Of a stretch of DNA of 64,000 nt, positions 3,954-64,000 are shown piece after piece. The DNA comes from Aphrocallistes beatrix (lineage: Eukaryota > Porifera > Hexactinellida > Sceptrulophora > Aphrocallistidae). The translations under genes and the position numbers were made by a program. The stretch covers positions 3,154,968 to 3,218,967 of the forward strand of contig OY725497.1 in assembly GCA_963281255.1 (NCBI GenBank), in the 5' to 3' direction. How positions within the stretch are numbered: position 1 is the first letter of the stretch; every line of letters starts with the position of its first letter. The notes beneath the pieces are model-generated. The model ran no database searches. It worked only from the letters and a program-made list of their open reading frames with translations, and was not told the DNA's origin.

Positions 3954-5400
3954 TTCCCCCTAAAATATACAGTCCCGATTCTACCCAATCTCTACCATCT
4001 GCTGATAAATCCTTCAAAAATGTGAAAAGGTACACATCTTAATCCTGCTTAGTATGCCCTTGGATGAATGTAGCATACAAGCAAGCTCCGTTGCGTGGCT
4101 AGCGGACACTTTGTATCTGCAACAGACGGCCTGCGGTGGCTATTATGACTTACATTTTTAAACCATGGATATATGATCTTCAAAATTCGAAAATTAATGA
4201 CGAATATCATTCTGTAAACTGTGTTGATTTTAATGTTTACATCGCTTATATTCTCGAATTATGGCCCAACTATGATCTTATTCAGTGACTCATCACAAAA
4301 TGAAATTTCGCGAAAAATATTTGATACACATTTACACCATAAATGATCCCACCAATGATTTCGATATAAATCGGATTATTAGATTTCATAGCATCGCACG
4401 GACGGACGTAAAGAGATAATGCAAGTAAACGAATAAGAGAGTTTAAGAATATACAAATGTTACTGAACTGTCAATAATAAATAATTTGGATTATTTAGCT
4501 CACTGTTGATAAGAGATTTGTTTTATTTTTTCTGAGGAAGCGAGTCTCTCTATTTCATCATCATTGTTTAATTACTTTTAATCACATCAGTATATTTAGC
4601 CTTATTACCGGCAGCATTGGTATACTATGAAGGTTATGATATACGTAATAGATTTACAATGAAAAAGTGAAAATAATTTATCAATAATTGTCAATAAAGA
4701 CATCAAGGTGCGATGCCACAATTATTAGCTGGTACAGGAGCTAAAACAAGTTTCCTCTAATATATAGAACTATATTTTGAGTATTTACTGATAGAATTTA
4801 CACATTTGCTAAATTTGCCACATAGAAAGATTATTGAAAGATATCTTCGCTCATCAACCCTCACACATGTGCAATTCGTATCTGCAGAAACATATGATTT
4901 GGTTTTGATTGAATCTGTAGGAGCTGATAACATTGAAATGTAAATTTCATGTTCATGACCTACTCAGCCAGAGAAATCTCGAATAAACTTTAACATGGGT
5001 ATTAAGTTCACTTGTTAGTTCAGACGTGTTCTACTTGTAGAGATAAAATTGTTCTCAAAGTAACAACATTTTTACCTAGGAATTGAAGTCCGTATTATCA
5101 ACAGATTTCTGTATTAGGATGGAAGGAAGCAATTTTTTTTTCAAAACTAAGTGTTAAATTTCAAATTCATCACGAAAGTTCAGAAATGGTGGAGAATCTA
5201 AAACAAGTGGGTTCAAATTGAACTGTATTACTAATTCATTAATTCGAATATTCCTATCTCGATTCAAGCGGAGTTCGGCTAATCAAAAGTTAGCACGATA
5301 TTAATTAGGTCAAGATCTTTCCAGCAAAATACTTAAGTCAACAAACTATAAACCAAAGCATCACCAAAACCTTAACCTAACTTAAGAGGGTGACATTATA

Positions 5401-9277: not shown

Positions 9278-9793
9278 AGCTATCTATTTGTTTGTAGGTT
9301 CATGTTGTTAATAAATAACTATAATGATTGTAATTATCACTATGTGTAACTACGAACTTAAACATATACAAACAGTACAAATTCCCGATAGATAAAGAAT
9401 CTACGTACGGCATACCTTACTCTTTTTCGGTTTATTTCTTTGGGCTCAAATACATATTTAGCTAACATCATCTGAGGAGTGTTCACTAACATTTCTACTA
9501 ACGTTCAACTTAAACTTAGCTAAAACTTGCAGTAAAGTTACGTAATTGCAACATGAAGAGATTACATCTCCCAGGAAAAAACTGTCTGATATTTCTAATG
9601 ATATTGGCTATACAAAAGTTGGAATACAGACAATTCGTGACAAGACAATTCGTGACAAGACATTTCGTGACAAGACAATTCGTGACAAAATTTCTAGACA
9701 TCAGGGGCCTTATTCTCAGATCGACTTAACTTAAACTAAGTATTTACTACTTAGTTTCGAGCAAAAAACTAAGTATGGATTTAAGTATAAGTA

Positions 9794-10800: not shown

Positions 10801-11168
10801 TAGCTAAGAAAACTTAATGAAAATTAAGTAATTACTTAGTTTAAGTTAAGTCGATCTGAAAATAAGGCCCATGATGTCTAGAAATTTTGTCACGAATTGT
10901 CTTGTCACGAAATGTCTTGTCACGAATTGTCCTGTCACGAATTGTCTGTATTCCACAAAAGTTTAACAGAGATTTTGCTATTCTCTAATAAGTTTGTGTG
11001 TTTAAATTTGAATAATTTTCCTAAATTATAAACTTCTGTGAGTTATTTCATAAACTCCATACAAATAATGTGTACTCATAAGAGCAATATCATTAATATG
11101 GCATGTTTCAGTGCAGAGCAATTTATATACGTATATATATATATATTTAAGTGTGAATAAACACTAAC

Positions 11169-30728: not shown

Positions 30729-31785
30729 CAAGCACGCTTTGCTTGCTTGCGCTGCGCGGCTTGCGGACACTGCGTGTCCGCAGAGTCGACCTGCGGGCGC
30801 CTGGAGTCACTCAATCAAACATATTTTGGGAGTTTTTTCCTTTATATAAATATTTTAAACAAAGGTCAACGAAAAATTTCTCATATGGATCCGAAAATAT
30901 AATATTGGAAATCTACAGCACTAAAAACTCCATGTCAACCGTTGGAAGCTAGTCTCTGGCCTATTTTTGTAATTTGTTTACTTTATGTATCTATTGTAAA
31001 CAAAAGTAAACAAATAATTCATCACATCGATCTGAAAATATGATATTCGAAATCTACACCCCTGAAAACCCCATGTCAACCGTTGAAAGCAAGTTTATAG
31101 CATATTTTTGAGTTTTATTTACTTTATGTATCTATTGTAAACAAAGGTAAACAAATTGATCTTCAAATTTACGTGAAAATATGATATTCGAAATCCACAC
31201 CCCTGAAAACCCCATGTCAATCGTTGAAAGCAAGTCTCTAACCCATTTTTGTAATTTGTTTACTTTATGTATCTATTGTAAACAAAAGTAAACAAATAAT
31301 TTATCATATAGATCTGAAAATATGATATTCGAAATCTACACCCCTAAAAACCCCATGTCACCCGTTGGAAGCTAGTCTCTAGCATTATTTTCAAAATTCA
31401 TCAAATGATGTGAAAATATGTATATAAAGGTGAGAAAATATGCAGATAATCTTTTTATTGCCATACACTATAATACATTTAAGATATCAAACATAAGTTG
31501 TGGCTTTGAAGTATTAATAACAATGACGATCTATTCATTGTAGTGTCGTACTTGTACAATGATCTCTATTGTGATAGTGTAGTCATGTATTTTGTATAGA
31601 AAAGGTGCGAAAAATTGTTTTCCATTTTTTTGCAGAGATGTGAAAATTTCGCTTAGATCTTAGAACTTAATCGTAGGCATATCATTTGACACCTACATGC
31701 CAATTTTCACACCTCTATGACTTCCCAATTCTTCAATCAATTCGGACAAACACACAAAAAAATCCTAGCATTTTAATATATAAGA
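30729..31785 (-). mobile_element. Second Helitron family, reverse orientation, with internal satellite
   Basis: On the minus strand it starts TCTTATATATTAAAATGC, shares the subterminal gaattgattgaaga with the first family, and ends with GC-rich sequence finishing GCGTGCTTG. It lies between A and T. It carries four tandem units of 141 bp. A related copy without its 5' end lies at 43567-44238. Confidence 0.7.
30893..31400. repeat. 141-bp tandem repeat, about 3.6 copies
   Basis: The word gaaaatat(g)atattcg recurs at 30893, 31034, 31175 and 31316, an exact 141-bp period. Each unit also carries accccatgtcaaccgttg-like and tttactttatgtatctattg segments. The array is inside the reverse Helitron, as known for satellite-bearing non-autonomous Helitrons. 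Confidence 0.85.
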
Positions 31786-43566: not shown

Positions 43567-44238
43567 AATTAATACTTCAAAGCAATAACTTATATGGATG
43601 TCTCAATTATATATTATAGTGTATGGCAGTTAAAAAGGTTATTTGTAATTTTCACACCTTTATATACATATTTTCACACCTTTATATACATATTTTCACA
43701 CGATTTGACGAATTTTGAAAATTATGCTAGAAACTAGCTTCCAACGGTTGACATGGGGTTTTCAGGGGTGTAGATTTCGAATATCATATTTTCAGATCGA
43801 TATGATAAATTATTTGTTTACCTTTGTTTACAATATATACATAAAGTAAACAAATTACAAAATAGGCTAGAAACTATCTTCCAACGGTTGACATGGGGTT
43901 TTCAGGGGTGTAGATTTCGAATATCATATTTTCAGATCGATATGATAAATTATTTGTTTACTTTTGTTTACAATATGTACATAAAGTAAACAAATTACAA
44001 AATAGGCTAGAAACTATCTTCCAACGGTTGACATGGGGTTTTCAGGGGTGTAGATTTCGAATATCATATTTTCGGATCCATATGAAAAATTATTCGTTGA
44101 CCTTTGTTTACAATATATATATAAAGGAAAAAAATTCCAAAAATACTTTAGATTGAGTAACTCCAGGCGCCCGCAGGGCGACTCTGTGGACACGCAGTGT
44201 CCGCAAGCCGCGCAGCGCAAGCAAGCGAAGCGCGCTTG
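43567..44238 (+). mobile_element. Satellite-bearing Helitron, 5'-truncated copy
   Basis: From aattaatacttcaaagc onward the sequence matches the reverse Helitron at 30729-31785. It carries about three tandem units of 140 bp (ggttgacatgg at 43746, 43886 and 44026) and ends GCGCGCTTG before T. The 5' terminus is missing. Confidence 0.75.
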
Positions 44239-48489: not shown

Positions 48490-50616
<2,127 letters not shown>

Positions 50617-56470: not shown

Positions 56471-57866
56471 GTAACGAATTGATTGAAGAAACTGCCGGGC
56501 GCAGAAGGCTGATTTTTGGCATGTGGGAGTCTTTTGGCTATGGCTCCAGTAAGTTCTGAGTTCAGAGCAAAATGTCGACTCATCATGGAATTATGACGTC
56601 ATTGTCACATTTTTAAAAGTTAAGCAACACAGTTATTCGGGCATAACTCAGCCATTATAGGAGATAGAAGGCTGAAATTTTAATAGAATCTGTATACTAA
56701 CATGTCTCACATATGATGCGACTTTCATCAAAAAATGATGACTCATCACTCTGTTATGACGTCATCATTACGCATCAAAAATTTAAAAATTGACAAATTT
56801 GGTGATTTTTCGAGTGATATCGATTAGCACAGTAGAACAGACATATTTAGAGATGTTATCTCCCTTATAATTAACCAATGTGACTCCAGGCGACCGAAGG
56901 GAGCCTCCGGCGGGCACGAAGTGTCCGCCAGCCGCGCAGCGCAAGCAAGCGCGAAGCGCGCATGTTATTGTTAAATAGGAAGTCATATTTTTGGAGTTCC
57001 TTCGTCAAGCCTTACCTCAACTATGCGTGGAATGTGAGTTTTACGGTTTTCACACCTGATTTTCAACAAATTTTAAATCGCTATTAGTGTATGATTTTCA
57101 GAGAAAATCAAGATGGTGACGGGTTGATTCGAAAAAATTAAAAATTTCTAATGGGATGTTGTTACATTCCAACGTTGCTATGGAAACGCATTTTTACCAA
57201 TAGTACCTATATCTTTAAAACCGTTCTAGTTAGACATTCAAATCTGAATGTATTTGATAGGCAATAAGAAACTCTCTATTAGCTCATAACACATTTTGTA
57301 ACATTAATATTTAGATTCTCGATATATGATGCAATGTACCAAATATGTATCATCAAATATATTGCGCCATATCTCGAAAATCTTAGGGCATAATGTTAGA
57401 AAATGTATGAGGAGCTAATATAAAGTATCTTATTGCCTGTCAAATACATTCAGAATTGAATGTCTAACTATAACGGTTTTAAAGATATAGGCACTATTGG
57501 TAAAAATGCGTTTCCATAGCAACGCTGGAATGTAGCAGCATTCCATAGAAATTTTTCAATTTTTTTCGAATCAACCCGTCACCATCTTGATTTTCTCTGA
57601 AAATCATACACTAATAACGCTTTAAAATCTGAACAGGTCAGAATATCATCAAAATTGATTTTTAAAATTGTGAAAATCAGGTGAGAAAAATAACTTACAC
57701 TCCACACATAGTTGAGGTAAGGCTTGTTCAAGGGACTCCAAAAATATGACTTCGTATTAACAATAATACATTTCCCATGTCTAACTTGAGTGGATTACGA
57801 GATAGCAATAATATTACATAACGGACCAGGACCCGAGATTGAACGCGTCCTTACTTAAAGGAGTCT
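56283..57866. mobile_element. Palindromic foldback element, about 1.0 kb without its Helitron insert
   Basis: The left arm (from aactcctttaagtaaggac) and right arm (ending gtccttacttaaaggagt) are reverse complements through almost the whole length and meet near 57350 with no real spacer. Conserved words in both arms include atctcgggtcctgg, tgacgggttgattcga, gctatggaaacgcatttttacc and ttagacattca. The left arm is split by the Helitron at 56402-56964. No coding sequence was seen. Confidence 0.85.
56402..56964 (+). mobile_element. Helitron inserted in one palindrome arm
   Basis: It starts TCCTTACTATTAAAACTCG after gaaatgtA and ends GCGCGCATG before Ttattgttaa. The uninterrupted right arm of the palindrome reads gaaatgtATtattgttaa on its complementary strand, the exact empty site. 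This proves both ends, the A^T target and the lack of target duplication. A (TA)n run of about 40 bp lies near its 5' end. Confidence 0.92.
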
Positions 57867-57877
57867 ATGACTTAGAC

Positions 57878-58032
57878 CAGCGCTGTCCAACAGGCGGCCC
57901 GCGTTGCCTGCTTCAATCTCTCCAAAATGCCTCTATCCATACCCATCCCGAGTGTACGCCCCTGTATTGCGGCCCGCCACTAAATGGTATGAAGCAGTTG
58001 CGGCCCGAAGTAAATATAGTTGGACAGCCCTG
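57878..58032. mobile_element. hAT MITE with perfect 8-bp target duplication
   Basis: The 155-bp element starts CAGCGCTGTCCAAC, ends GTTGGACAGCCCTG, and is flanked on both sides by acttagac. The inner sequence repeats cggcccgc near both ends. It touches the right edge of the palindrome. Confidence 0.9.
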
Positions 58033-59215
58033 ACTTAGACAAATAGATCTAACATCCGATAACTCTTTTTATTTAGAAATAATGAAGATTATCTTCATTA
58101 TTTTGCACTCCAATAGCCTGTAATCCTTAATTTATTTTCTATGGTGGATCAGATATATTTTTGTTAAAAAAATAATCAGGGCGACCATGGCCCCTGAGGA
58201 CGCGCCAGGACTTTCCTCTAGGGGGACAAATAATGAAATAGACTTTTTGATGGGGAGCACAACACCCAGTTGGTGTTCTGGGGGCGCTGTAAGCCCCCCA
58301 AAGTCCAGGGGATCAAGGGATTTGCCCTTAGAAGCGGACATTATTTTGCCTAAACAAATGCCCAAATCCCTCAAATTGAGCAAAATTTTCCAAAATTAAG
58401 CTTATTAAATTCTTATGAGTACGAAGTACTAGAAACTCTAAATATTTTCTCCAATGTGAGCATTGTCTCCCTCGTCTCCCGTGGCGATGTCCCTGGTCTG
58501 GGAGCATAGGCCCCAGATAATTTTTTAATTGCTGTAGCAGAAGACAAATTCGAAACTCTTTTGTGCAGTGATCTCTATCCACAGCATAAAAACACGGTAG
58601 TATACGTAATGAAAAATTTTTGCTCTACCAGTTTGGAGGGTCCTAGAATCCCCAGGATCCCCCCCACCTGTGTCCATTCATTTGGTAATATGTACTTTGC
58701 GGCAGCGCTAAGTAAGAATATTTCAAAGACACAAATTATTCCAATTTTGTTGCGCCAAGTAGGAATTTCTACTTGGTGCAACAAAGTCGGAACAATCTCT
58801 GTTTTTGAAATATTCCTACTAGCGCTGCGTAAAATTGGTATCTATTTGCAATTTATTTAGGGTTTACTGGGGTATCTGTGCTGCATACGTCAACTACGAA
58901 AATAAATGTATTTACTCATCGCGAAATATTTCATACAAATACCTAATAAATAAAAGTGTACAATGGATATAATTTTTGAAAATCATGCAGTTAAAGTGTA
59001 AAGAAATTCTATAGTAGTATTTTAATTTGTTATGTGTTATTTACACTTTCAAAATTACTCAGCTTTGAAAATTTAAATCAATTCTTTATCTCCATGTGAA
59101 TATACCTCAGATAGGTTAGATTGACCATGATTATATAAAATTGTGATTAATAATGACACAAAGTTGATAAATAATACGAGTGTGAAGTTGGCAGCGAAAA
59201 CAGCAGCGAAATCCA
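58033..59215. other. Intergenic region before the DDE/OTU element
   Basis: No gene was recognised. A small foldback lies at 58703-58829. A CC/GG-rich stretch at 58180-58330 (ggcgaccatggcccctgagg and following bases) looks like another repeat but was not classified. Confidence 0.45.
58703..58829. repeat. 127-bp foldback element
   Basis: The arms cagcgctaagtaagaatattt and aaatattcctactagcgctg are reverse complements, and the centre is itself palindromic (gttgcgccaagtagg against ctacttggtgcaac). The element can fold along its entire length. Confidence 0.8.
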
Positions 59216-59915
59216 TGTACACTTTAGTATGCGATAATTTGGAAACCAGGGCTGATATAAGGATTTCATTTAACTCAAGTTAAGAATACCTATGGTATAT
59301 TACATAGTAAAAATATTTTCCAAATCTGGCACTTGGTCATCTCGTGATGACTTTGCAAACTTTAACCATTTTTATGGATTTTTCTGTTTTTTCGATACTG
59401 TGTGCTCTTTTGTGTGCGATTATTTGGAAACCAGTAGAGATACGAGGAATTCCTTTCAAACAAGTAAGGAATACCTATGGTATATTGTTTTATTAAAATA
59501 TCAACTAAATCTGACACTTGGTCATCTCGTGATGACTTTGCAAACTTTAACCACTTTATGGATTTTTCTGTTTTTTTCGATACTGTGTGCACTTTTGTGT
59601 GCGATAATTTGGAAACCAGTAGAGATATGATGAATTCCTTTCAAACAAGTAAAGAATACCTATGGTATATTGTTTTCTTAAAATATCAACTAAATTCGAC
59701 ACTTGGTCATCCCGTGATGACTTTGCAAACTTTAAACCAGTGTTAACTTTAAACCAGTGATTCAGTGCCCCCTTCTCAACGTTCCCCACAACGCCCCTTC
59801 CTCTCCAGCGCCCCCTGAGGCAAGCAAACGCCCCCGTTGGGAACCACTGCTTTAAACATTTTATGGATTTTTCTGTTTTTTCGATACTGTGTGCACTTTA
59901 ATTACCGAAATAACT
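59216..59915. repeat. 185-bp tandem repeat, about 3.3 copies
   Basis: The word acttggtcatc(t/c)cgtgatgac recurs at 59331, 59516 and 59701, an exact 185-bp period. Each unit also has gcgataatttggaaaccag-like and aatacctatggtatatt segments. The last unit is split by a 95-bp hAT MITE. The array ends about 150 bp before the 2A-encoding exon and may be its 5' subterminal repeat region. Confidence 0.85.
59755..59849. mobile_element. hAT MITE inside the 185-bp repeat array
   Basis: The 95-bp element begins CAGTGATTCAGTGCCC, ends GTTGGGAACCACTG, and is flanked on both sides by the 8-mer ctttaaac. The interior is rich in cgcccc words. The left and right ends match only partly. Confidence 0.8.
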
Positions 59916-60061
59916 CTCACTTCACTTGTACATATTACCAAAATATGTAAACCTGGATTGTATATCAATGTTAACAACAAACAGATGAATGTCATTTCTT
60001 CTGAACAATTGTCTTCATTTGGAAATATTTTTGGACTGGTTTATTTTCTATTTATTGTAAC

Positions 60062-62949
60062 ATGATTCTGTTAAATGGCATAGGAAAGTATTTATTATTT
60101 GAATCACAGTCTGAGGACACATCCCATGGAAATCAATTAGGATATTTTGTGTCAGTCACCTTTTCAAATATATTTCTATTTTCAACCAAACTACTCTTGA
60201 GTGGTGATATTGAGTTAAACCCAGGTCCTTTGGGACCAGGTAAGTAATTTTCATTCTATTTATTTCTATCCGTATGTCAGTTACATCATTTTGGCAATTT
60301 TGATTTTCAGTTCCTAATGTCAACAAATTGATAATAAACACAGAACAACGACTATGCTGAGTTAATCGATTATGCTGATTCTGATTATTATATTCAACAT
60401 TTTTGCTCTCACTGCTAGTATTTGTAACTTTGATACTCAGTAATAAAATTGAATTAATGAACATAAAGCAAATACTAGTATTATTGTATTCTTATACATA
60501 CTATACATATAATTTATTTTAGAGAATATGGAAACTTTGTCTGCAAACGCAAAGATATCTGAAAAATTCATAAATGCATTGTCAATATTAGATTTGCCCT
60601 GGATCGAAATTAAATCAAAACTTAGAAACAGTAATTGGCGCGATTCTATGTCAATATGGGGGAAATTGTCTAAATTCATATTCAAAATGAATCGTCTAAC
60701 CCTGAGAAGAAAAGTTATGCTTTTTTGGTATCAAAATACTGATAAAATTAAAGAGCAAGTAAATTCTTGCCATAATTCGACAGAAATAATTGACAAAGAA
60801 TTAATACTGATTGTGAGTATAGATCTATCCAAATTGTTGGGTGCAAATTATACTCCAATACACCAAATGGATGAATTCTCAGCTATACAAAAATGTCCAT
60901 CTCTATCTTATCTTAACTTGGATAAATTACTTCCAACACAGATATCTTCGGGAAATGAATCAGAAATATCATCTTTAGAATCCGGATATAATGACCATAT
61001 AAATACAAATACTAGTGCAAACTCCCTAGGCCACCAAGACCATATTTCCGAAATTGGTATTGGTGATAAACTTACATCTTATGGTTCCTGGACGCCAAAA
61101 GCTGATCAAACAAAAATTTTTTTCTCAATCCTGAAGAGTGGGATTGTATTAAACCGAAAACTGGGTGTAACAAATTGGTTCCTAATTGGACATATACTTT
61201 TAACCAGGAACGTGTTTATTCCCTTACTGTGTCATCAAATTTTTATATCACCGAGTTAATAGCTATTCTGAATCTCGGAATTGTCCTTTTATAACAGCAC
61301 AAGCGATGTGTAAATTTAAAAGATGCTTCAAATTTTCAATTCGGATTGAAGAAATGCCTAAAGGAAAATCTGAATACGTATCTGTGGAAGTATTAGCTGA
61401 AGGTAATCTTTCAAATGAACATTTTGATCATATAACTGCACATAGTCGCAATGTATCAGGGGATCAACGAGAAGAGTTAGGAAAAAAGGTAGCTTGCAGT
61501 TCTGCAATAAATTATCATTATGATCTCTTTAAAAATTCACAAAATTTAACAGTTGCAAAGCATGGAAATTTGAATGAATACATTCACAAGAAGTTTTACG
61601 GAAGGTAAAGTCACAACATATGGAAAAGCAGCGATTCATGATATATGGCAGGATATAATTGTAACCAAGAAATCTTATGACAGTACTATTAAAGGAAAAG
61701 TTTTAAACGGCTATATTCAAATGATATCGAGATATCCACTTATACAAGTAATACATATGTATTGTGAGGAACAATTAGTTTTTTTGAAGTTAATAGAAAA
61801 GTCTAAGTTGAAGTTGCATTTAGATGCAACAGGATCTGTTGTCAGAAAGCTAGATCGTGATGAGAAGAATTTCTTATACTATGCTCTAACCTTACAACAT
61901 CCAATAGCGAAAATAAGCCCAATTCCCCTAGCTGAGATGCTAACAAACGAACAAACAAATGTTGAGATTACACATTTTTAAACAGATGGTACTACGATGT
62001 GAGAAGGATATTGAACCGGGATATTTGCCCTTCTCAAGTCGAAGTAGATTTCAGTTGGGCAATGTTGCATAGCATTTGCAAGATTTTCAACCGACAACAC
62101 CTAGAAGATTATCTTAATACTTGTTGGCAGTACATATACATACCTCTCAAACCGAAAAATATTGGGATAAAAGTATACTTCATATACTATGTTCAGCTCA
62201 TTTAATGAACCGTATTAGTTATAAACTTGAACATACGATGAAAATCAAGAAATCTATAAAAAGAATATTTATGTTTTTAATGGCAAGATTGGTAGCATGT
62301 ACAAATATTGGTGAATTCGAGCAACTTTTCACTGCGCTATGTATGGTCTGTTTGGCAAAAAGGATATACCCAGAGATTCAACAATATTTTTCTAAAATTG
62401 AGAAAGCTGTTAAGTCTAAAGAAGAAGATATCGATGAGGACTTTGATTATATCGCTGAATTGGATGAAGAACTCACAAATGATATGGGGGATAGCAATAG
62501 TTATAAAAGTAAATCGCCATTTGGGAGATATTTTAACAGGGTGTTAATTAAATGTCAAGAACGAATATATCATTTAGAAATACTGCATAAAACAACTTCT
62601 CTTGAAGAAAATGATAATTATTTCTTACCACGATTACCAACTTCTTTGGACCAGTTTGATTTTAGGTCCTGTTATGGCACCAAATGAAAGTGATGTAAGA
62701 TCTAGCAATGCCATTGTTGAAAACTGGATGCGAATTCTGAAAATCAATATTCTTCAAAATCAAACTAAATTGAGGCCAGGCGATTTCTTAAGAAAAATAC
62801 GTGAAGGATTGGAAGGAAGAATTAGAGCATTTGGATTTGCATTTGAGCCTCTGAGCTCCAAGATACTGAAAACTAAAGTTCCTCGTAAAATTAAGGATAA
62901 TAAATTAGCAGAAGAAATCTGGCAAAGGCGAAAGAAAAATAAAAACTAA
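60062..62949 (+). pseudogene. Decayed DDE/CxxH transposase with N-terminal 2A-like leader
   Basis: Exon 1 (60062-60239) encodes a hydrophobic leader ending LLLSGDIELNPGP. A GTAAGT donor and a ttttag acceptor at 60522 join it in phase to the downstream frame (METLSANAKISEKF onward). Later blocks are MCKFKRCFKFSIRIEEMP, then LHLDATGSVVRK (first Asp, codon 61823), EVDFSWAM (second Asp, 62047), CSAH (62190-62201) and NAIVENWM (Glu, 62719). After that comes the conserved tail LRPGDFLRKIREGLEGRIRAF. Asp, Asp, CxxH, Glu in this order suggests a Mutator-like (MULE) superfamily transposase; the exact family is uncertain. The parts lie in different frames with stops between them, so the gene is broken. 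Codon use is AT-rich, unlike the host genes. Confidence 0.75.
60206..60229 (+). other. 2A-like ribosome-skipping motif
   Basis: The eight codons read DIELNPGP, preceded by LLLSG. This matches the 2A consensus D(V/I)ExNPGP, where translation breaks between the last Gly and Pro. Such motifs also occur in animal retrotransposons and in some sponge and sea-urchin genes, often next to a hydrophobic leader as here. Activity is inferred from the motif alone. Confidence 0.85.
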
Positions 62950-63130
62950 TTCTCAAATGACTAGTAGGTATGCTTACGTAGAATATAACAAATAGTGAAA
63001 AAAATGGTAGCAAATCCACTAAAAAGGCCGAAATTCTAAAATCAGTAGGTAATACTTTTGGTAATAAACGAAATCCAATTATTGAAAATCAGACAAAATC
63101 GATAATTCTTAATTTTCGTCATTAGAGAAG

Positions 63131-63947
63131 ATGAATACCTCAGCACCTGCTATCGTAAGTTGTATCAATAGTGTAGTTTCAGGTGATTCTTCTCCGCTTG
63201 ATATTACAATGCAAGAAGTTACGTATTATGATCACGGTGACTTCTCACCAGTAAATCAAATTTGGCAGAGAGAAAAGTGTAAATTCTTACAGCTAACATA
63301 TGTGTGTGGTGTTCTTTACGAGAATGAATCAGCGGATAAAAACTCGCAAATTCGCGAGTTAAGGCCTTCGAAAGAAAAAAAGATTTCTCCTGATGGAAAT
63401 TGTTTATTCCGGTCAATCTCATATGTTATAACTGGGAGCGATCATAATCACCAAGAAATCAGAGAAGTATTGGTTCAAAATATGAAGGGAAAATATAGAG
63501 AATAATGCACTAAGTACTGTTACACACAAAATTGTTACACACAAAATTGTTGCTGGTTATGCCTAGTTGTGAAAGCCTTTTTAAAATTCAGTTTTGGGTA
63601 CCGTGTAACAGTACTTAGTGCATTATACTCTATATTTCACTGTTAGGCGGTGTTTGCTGTTCAATCGAACAATATATACAGAAGAGCAAAATAGATCGTA
63701 ATGGATCCTGGGGCACAGATCAAGAATTATTTTTAACTGTAATATTGTTGAAAACCGATATTTTGTCTATCGTGTTTCTCTATCCTCATGGGTTAAATTT
63801 ACGGCTCATGGATTTATTAACAAGCATGATGCTCATCCATTGACAGAAAAGAGATTATATTTTCGATTATAGTATATGGATCATTATCAACCTGTTGTTA
63901 AAGTAGACTCTATAGTGGAACTGAATAGAAAGTCAAATAGAGATTGA
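63131..63947 (+). pseudogene. Broken OTU cysteine-protease gene of the transposon
   Basis: The first 124 codons end in an OTU catalytic block, KKISPDGNCLFRSISYVITG, with the nucleophile Cys at 63401. A 119-bp MITE (63505-63623) interrupts the frame after KGKYRE. Beyond it, in other frames, come KSKIDRNGSWGTDQELFLTV (around 63690-63740) and DHYQPVVKV with the expected catalytic His at 63882. The conserved pieces thus lie in three frames, so the gene is inactive. OTU domains in DNA transposons (for example some MULEs) are known. Its place just after the DDE gene on the same strand suggests one element. The upstream part includes FSPVNQIWQREKCKFLQL, unassigned. Confidence 0.8.
63505..63623. mobile_element. 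119-bp MITE inserted in the OTU domain
   Basis: The terminal repeats are perfect over 21 bp, starting ATGCACTAAGTACTG, with TA on both sides as the target duplication. The insertion point lies within the OTU coding region. The perfect ends suggest a fairly recent insertion. Confidence 0.9.
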
Positions 63948-64000
63948 TGAGATCATGTGTTTAGATAGAAATTTGTAGATGAAAATTAGATTATCGTTTT

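Follow-up and report, generated by a model that had tools for sequence, protein, structure and literature searches.

Why would a gene that resembles a transposase begin with a peptide whose last residues look like a viral 2A sequence? The question is raised by a locus near the end of the 64,000-nucleotide stretch of DNA analysed here (the window), in which a 56-residue leader ending in a 2A-type (StopGo) motif is followed by a splice donor and, across a putative intron, by a broken, transposase-like reading frame. StopGo sequences are frequent in RNA viruses and seldom occur in cellular genes (PMC12846837, in excerpt), and outside viruses they are found, according to the excerpt of PMC11512398, in non-LTR retrotransposons and NLR proteins. 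Because retrotransposon proteins and some immune-receptor proteins are known to begin with such signals, the unusual part of this locus is the gene behind the signal and not the signal itself. The window is animal-like, with an actin frame, a Slo-type potassium channel frame, an ankyrin-DHHC transferase and pieces of glutamate dehydrogenase and HMG-CoA reductase. We hold with middling confidence that the leader was the first exon of a gene in a DNA transposon, since decayed, and that this gene gave a separate transposase. The features around the leader are as follows.

60062-60239, forward strand: putative exon 1, encoding the 56-residue 2A leader, followed by LGP and by one base of a further codon; it holds the only ATG in the open stretch 60005-60247
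60191-60229, forward strand: 2A/StopGo motif LLLSGDIELNPGP, with skipping predicted between the G codon (60224-60226) and the P codon (60227-60229)
60240-60522, forward strand: putative phase-1 intron of 283 bases, from CAG/GTAAGT to TTTATTTTAG, predicted from sequence
60523-61259, forward strand: putative start of exon 2 and opening part of the downstream protein, ended by a stop at 61257-61259

The leader, its 2A motif and the splice sites

From its single ATG at 60062, the open frame translates to 56 residues by 60229 (the last P counted) and ends in LLLSGDIELNPGP, just as the first-pass annotation had placed it. Across the six frames of the window NPGP occurs only here, within DIELNPGP at 60206-60229, which is an instance of the D(V/I)ExNPGP core of 2A/StopGo sequences. 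Under a first-order Markov model of both strands, the window is expected to hold 6.6e-5 copies of this core and 6.7e-8 copies of the longer LLxxGD(V/I)ExNPGP. When the window was shuffled and one mismatch was allowed, the mean number of motif matches was 0.03, and 3 of 100 shuffles had a match. The 2A-type motif is far beyond chance. A chance motif in non-coding DNA would suit a gene region that is decayed and has no known transcript, but it is extremely improbable given the expectations for the core and for the core with its upstream leucine pair, and given the perfect splice donor right behind the motif.

In F2A numbering, the leader reads S4, T5, K6, L7, L8, L9, S10, G11, D12, I13, E14, L15, N16, P17, G18 and P19, and the F2A key residues L7, D12, E14 and N16 are all kept. 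Activity of F2A is abolished in the mutants D12A and N16A and falls to 34% with L7A and 82% with L9A, and StopGo sequences prefer G at position 11 if position 12 is D, have L-rich motifs with (A/S/C)G at the end, and favor L, among other residues, at position 15 (PMC12846837, 2026, in excerpt). The leader provides this upstream context in STKLLLSG, with L7, L8, L9, S10 and G11. F4, L6 and K8 also influence F2A activity (PMC12846837, in excerpt), and the S, K and L found at these positions in the leader are mismatches that count against the reading we favor. Judged by its residues, the leader motif fits the published StopGo preferences apart from these three positions.

The last base of exon 1 is G and is followed by GTAAGT, so that a perfect donor, CAG/GTAAGT, stands at 60237-60245, within 20 bases after NPGP. 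This nonamer, CAGGTAAGT, is present in two copies in the window, where 0.44-0.45 would be expected, and 5 of 100 shuffles contain at least two. The chance that it starts in a given 20-base stretch is 7e-5, a figure that overstates the case because it was picked after the perfect 9-mer had been seen, looser donors being commoner. Between 60245 and 60532 there are six acceptor-like AGs preceded by at least 9 pyrimidines in 15 bases. Only the one at 60522, 5 bases before ATG 60528, is able to continue in the frame of that ATG, because the frame opens at 60513 and 60524 is out of phase. The resulting join, G/AG AAT ATG, is phase 1 and enters this frame; a join would be in phase by chance roughly 1 time in 3, and ATG 60528 could itself begin the downstream protein without exon 1. 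An alternative intron of 71 bases, ending at 60310, was rejected because it appears to run into a stop. The coordinates proposed earlier for an intron at 60240-60522, with a GTAAGT donor and in phase with the downstream frame, are correct, the splice sites being predicted ones.

The broken downstream gene and its surroundings

Beyond the first piece of the downstream protein, the following features were considered together with the leader.

61118-62946, forward strand: remaining transposase-like coding sequence, broken, with six more open pieces that change frame
63131-63502, forward strand: open frame for the first part of the domain of an OTU-like cysteine protease (Pfam PF02338 and PDB 4bop)
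63491-63637, no strand assigned: inverted-repeat insert of 147 bp, located where the OTU-like frame ends, with 35-nt arms 97% complementary
59216-59770, no strand assigned: three tandem repeats of 185 bp each, upstream of the leader exon

The downstream gene was read as seven pieces in all, coding-like to 62946, with at least six frame changes, whose positions are those where open frames give way to one another and not ones taken from an aligned relative. The downstream frame, broken in at least six places and with its first open piece stopping at 61259, is not intact. Elsewhere in the window, host frames of 376 to 1222 residues have no interruptions, and general sequencing error is therefore unlikely, while poor polishing of repeats could add indels to this gene.

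The assignment of the gene as a transposase is not borne out by a family match. Pfam, NCBIfam, PHROGs and PDB gave no transposase match. Profile searches, in which HMMER filters drop weak matches, returned no transposase family for the separate pieces (E 1) and no family for an X-joined reading (E 10); neither a MULE model nor an integrase model matched. The two PDB matches drawn by the X-joined reading (E 0.58 and 0.64), both to an inhibitor of RecBCD from a phage, are at chance level, and an AlphaFold model of one 126-residue piece was unusable (pLDDT 33.8). What suggests a transposase are the motifs LDATGS, VDFSW, CSAHLMN and ENW, which we take to resemble those of transposases of the MULE/NOF type, and presumably the upstream tandem repeats. 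These 185-bp repeats are possibly part of the element's terminal region. No pair resembling element ends was seen among 25 of the 31 inverted pairs in 57000-64000, and the element may pass the window end.

The OTU-like frame matches positions 2-39 of the 128 in the PF02338 profile (E 1.3e-4) with 22.9 bits, narrowly short of the cut-off of 23.3, and it matches 4bop, OTUD1, in PDB (E 1.7e-4). It contains DGNC, which we take to be the OTU active-site motif. OTU domains are known from DNA transposons, both Ginger1 (PMC2836005, in excerpt) and some animal elements of the Helitron type (PMC6431247, in excerpt).

Several other repeats were observed in the window. A short insert at 59730-59857, within a fourth, partial 185-bp repeat, has CAGTG.../...CACTG ends and is flanked by CTTTAAAC direct repeats (59747 and 59850, with a third copy at 59730); it resembles a small hAT-type element flanked by a target duplication of 8 bp. 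At 57006-57726 there is a palindromic element of 721 bp with the ends CAAGCCTTACC...GGTAAGGCTTG, of which 57067-57631 is 86% identical to its own reverse complement. Farther away, arrays of a tandem repeat of about 140 bp at 30822-31391 and 43719-44142 are 88-89% alike, in opposite orientation and about 12 kb apart. Two 4-copy arrays of a 15-bp repeat (9628-9688 and 10887-10947), also in opposite orientation and 99% alike over 81 bases, look like both ends of one element.

In the viral, phage and prokaryote collections searched, no second copy of the element was found. Five pieces used as queries against viral_contigs gave one locus, L001, judged a chance match (41% over 46 residues); it lies amid apparent phage genes on the other strand and has no NPGP pattern. 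One piece used against genome_contigs gave 180 pattern matches and no relative, and phage records gave no match to the transposase-like gene. Searches of prokaryote genomes (625 counted, some twice) yielded one weak match (E 0.256) in 1 of 7 genomes and none in the remaining sets (0/84, 0/156, 0/3, 0/250, 0/83 and 0/42); none of the collections searched could be expected to contain the element, and the empty answers are uninformative. The shorter pattern GD(V/I)ExNPGP was found in two stretches of viral_contigs, L002 and L003, both within open frames. Neither was counted as 2A; L002 has no leucine run directly before the motif, and its GDIEVNPGP (995-1020) stands directly ahead of a collagen-like GPT repeat.

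Retroelement leaders and rival explanations

As a control, LLxxGD(V/I)ExNPGP was scanned across 84,980 prokaryote genomes. The scan found eight motifs in seven contigs (L004-L010), presumably host contamination in symbiont and environmental assemblies, and all seven contigs are retroelements with an endonuclease and/or reverse transcriptase (RT) after the motif. Six are of the endonuclease/RT (non-LTR) type (L005-L010) and one, L004 (VGXS01000063.1), is Gypsy-like, with RT and integrase matches. A Pfam RT was found in six of the seven, in the motif's own frame in L004, L006, L008 and L010 and in the next frame downstream in L005 and L009; in L007, a frame of 172 residues matches an endonuclease. 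Among the non-LTR contigs, the motif is found at residues 29 to 101 of its open frame (cut off by the contig edge in L009 and L010), and in 6/6 the frame continues past NPGP, with endonuclease and/or RT in the same or the next frame. L004, filed under a planctomycete assembly, has two internal 2A-type motifs (1791-1828 and 4419-4456, minus strand) in one polyprotein frame of 2462 residues.

The leader in the window resembles these retroelement leaders, at 61% against L006 over 28 columns and 49% against L007 over 35. Similarity to the control proteins beyond chance level ends at the motif: nine control ORFs compared with the window by tblastn showed, past the motif, no endonuclease/RT match above chance. 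The leader is therefore of the retroelement kind with no retroelement behind it here, and the exon was rejected as part of an intact retrotransposon. Three weak matches elsewhere were taken for chance, namely the L009 RT frame upstream at 58637-58759 (E 0.39), L010 at 48898-49032 (E 0.39) and, on the opposite strand, L006 at 60087-60431 (E 0.25, from a permissive run listed only beyond 57000). The first-pass annotation was right about a 2A motif beyond chance, an excellent donor and an in-phase join, but it did not weigh how familiar such leaders are from retrotransposons.

That familiarity leads to the main rival explanation, in which the 2A exon was left behind by the 5' end of a non-LTR retrotransposon, or began some unrelated gene, and its position beside a broken transposon gene is accidental, with the transposase starting at ATG 60528. 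It draws on the retroelement identity of every control contig, on the independent start at that ATG, on the weak L009 and L006 matches, taken for chance though they are, and on the listing of non-viral 2As as non-LTR retrotransposons and NLRs (PMC11512398, in excerpt). It is nevertheless rather unlikely, since the frames of the six non-LTR contigs pass NPGP toward endonuclease/RT and nothing of this kind beyond chance follows here on the same strand, and it does not explain why a perfect donor immediately follows the motif or why the phase matches. Remnants of non-LTR elements that keep only the 5' end are also unusual. For a leader exon belonging to the decayed transposon gene speak the motif beyond chance, its StopGo fit, its likeness to retroelement leaders, the nearby donor, the in-phase acceptor and the OTU precedent; against it count the single copy, the failure of transposase models to match, the unusable AlphaFold model, the seven control contigs, ATG 60528 and the other AGs.

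We also considered dual targeting as in sea-urchin NLRs, in which the unskipped product would enter the secretory pathway through the leader and the skipped product would stay in the cytoplasm or nucleus. The first-pass annotation had cited precedent for such leaders and suggested a signal-peptide role. The precedent is sound: N-terminal 2A leaders of 26 residues in sea-urchin NLRs include SignalP-predicted signal sequences in 12 of 14 analysed, and one leader was tested (Roulston 2016; PMC4981915, in excerpt). The leader here does have a hydrophobic stretch, from about residue 26, but it is distant from the N terminus, acidic residues precede it, and its mean hydropathy is 1.61 for the best 15 residues (from residue 26) and 1.44 for the best 19 (from residue 29), so the case for a signal peptide, judged from sequence, is weak. 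The leader is also about twice as long as the sea-urchin ones, and the secretory pathway is of no evident use to a transposase. Taken together, dual targeting seems improbable.

If the leader was instead the first exon of the decayed transposon gene, all of these parts would belong to one element. Before that element broke, transcripts would have started upstream of 60062 and lost the 283-base intron by splicing, and ribosomes would have initiated at ATG 60062. At NPG/P the ribosome would release a 55-residue leader and continue with P-LGP-ENMETLS as a separate transposase chain. The leader exon would thereby supply the transcript start and the start codon, and skipping would leave the transposase almost without extra N-terminal sequence. 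The leader may derive from the 5' end of a retroelement, where such leaders are familiar.

Implications and comparison with known systems

More tentatively, we suggest a family of animal cut-and-paste DNA transposons with a spliced N-terminal StopGo exon of their own, in which the transposase is made by skipping behind a short leader; this is possible but short of probable. If true, it would extend the natural use of 2A from viruses, retroelements and NLRs to DNA transposons, and 2A leaders would seem able to move as an exon between unrelated mobile elements. It would also raise the question of why a skipping leader should stand ahead of a protein that must work alone. Among the literature matches listed, as titles and abstract openings, none described a 2A occurring naturally in a DNA transposon, though Rao et al. 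(2025), who surveyed 2As of viruses and eukaryotes, may already list such cases.

Known systems each share a part of this arrangement. The likeness to Mutator-like and NOF/Foldback elements would consist of short motifs and upstream tandem repeats, whereas here no MULE model matched and no terminal repeats were found among the inverted pairs listed. APE-type non-LTR retrotransposons, in which Odon et al. reportedly described 2A leaders in 2013, have in L005-L010 the same LLxxGD(V/I)ExNPGP leader early in the open frame; their frame goes on past NPGP toward endonuclease/RT, whereas here the motif is followed by a splice donor, and no retroelement protein is seen.

F2A and the L-rich viral StopGo sequences share L7, L9, G11, D12, E14, N16, P17, G18 and P19 with the leader, as well as an L-rich run ending in (A/S/C)G, but they separate the parts of a polyprotein, and in place of F4, L6 and K8 of F2A the leader has S, K and L (PMC12846837, in excerpt). 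In Ginger1 and animal Helentrons, an OTU domain accompanies a transposon gene (PMC2836005 and PMC6431247, in excerpt), much as the OTU-like frame lies near the transposon-like gene here; the OTU domain of Ginger1 is C-terminal on an integrase-like transposase (PMC2836005), whereas here the OTU-like frame is separate and no integrase model matched. SpNLR2A has, like the leader described here, a D(V/I)ExNPGP core at the N terminus, before a single large protein (PMC4981915, in excerpt). There it ends a leader of 26 residues in host immune genes, whereas here it ends one of 56 residues, in a separate putative exon ahead of a transposon-like gene.
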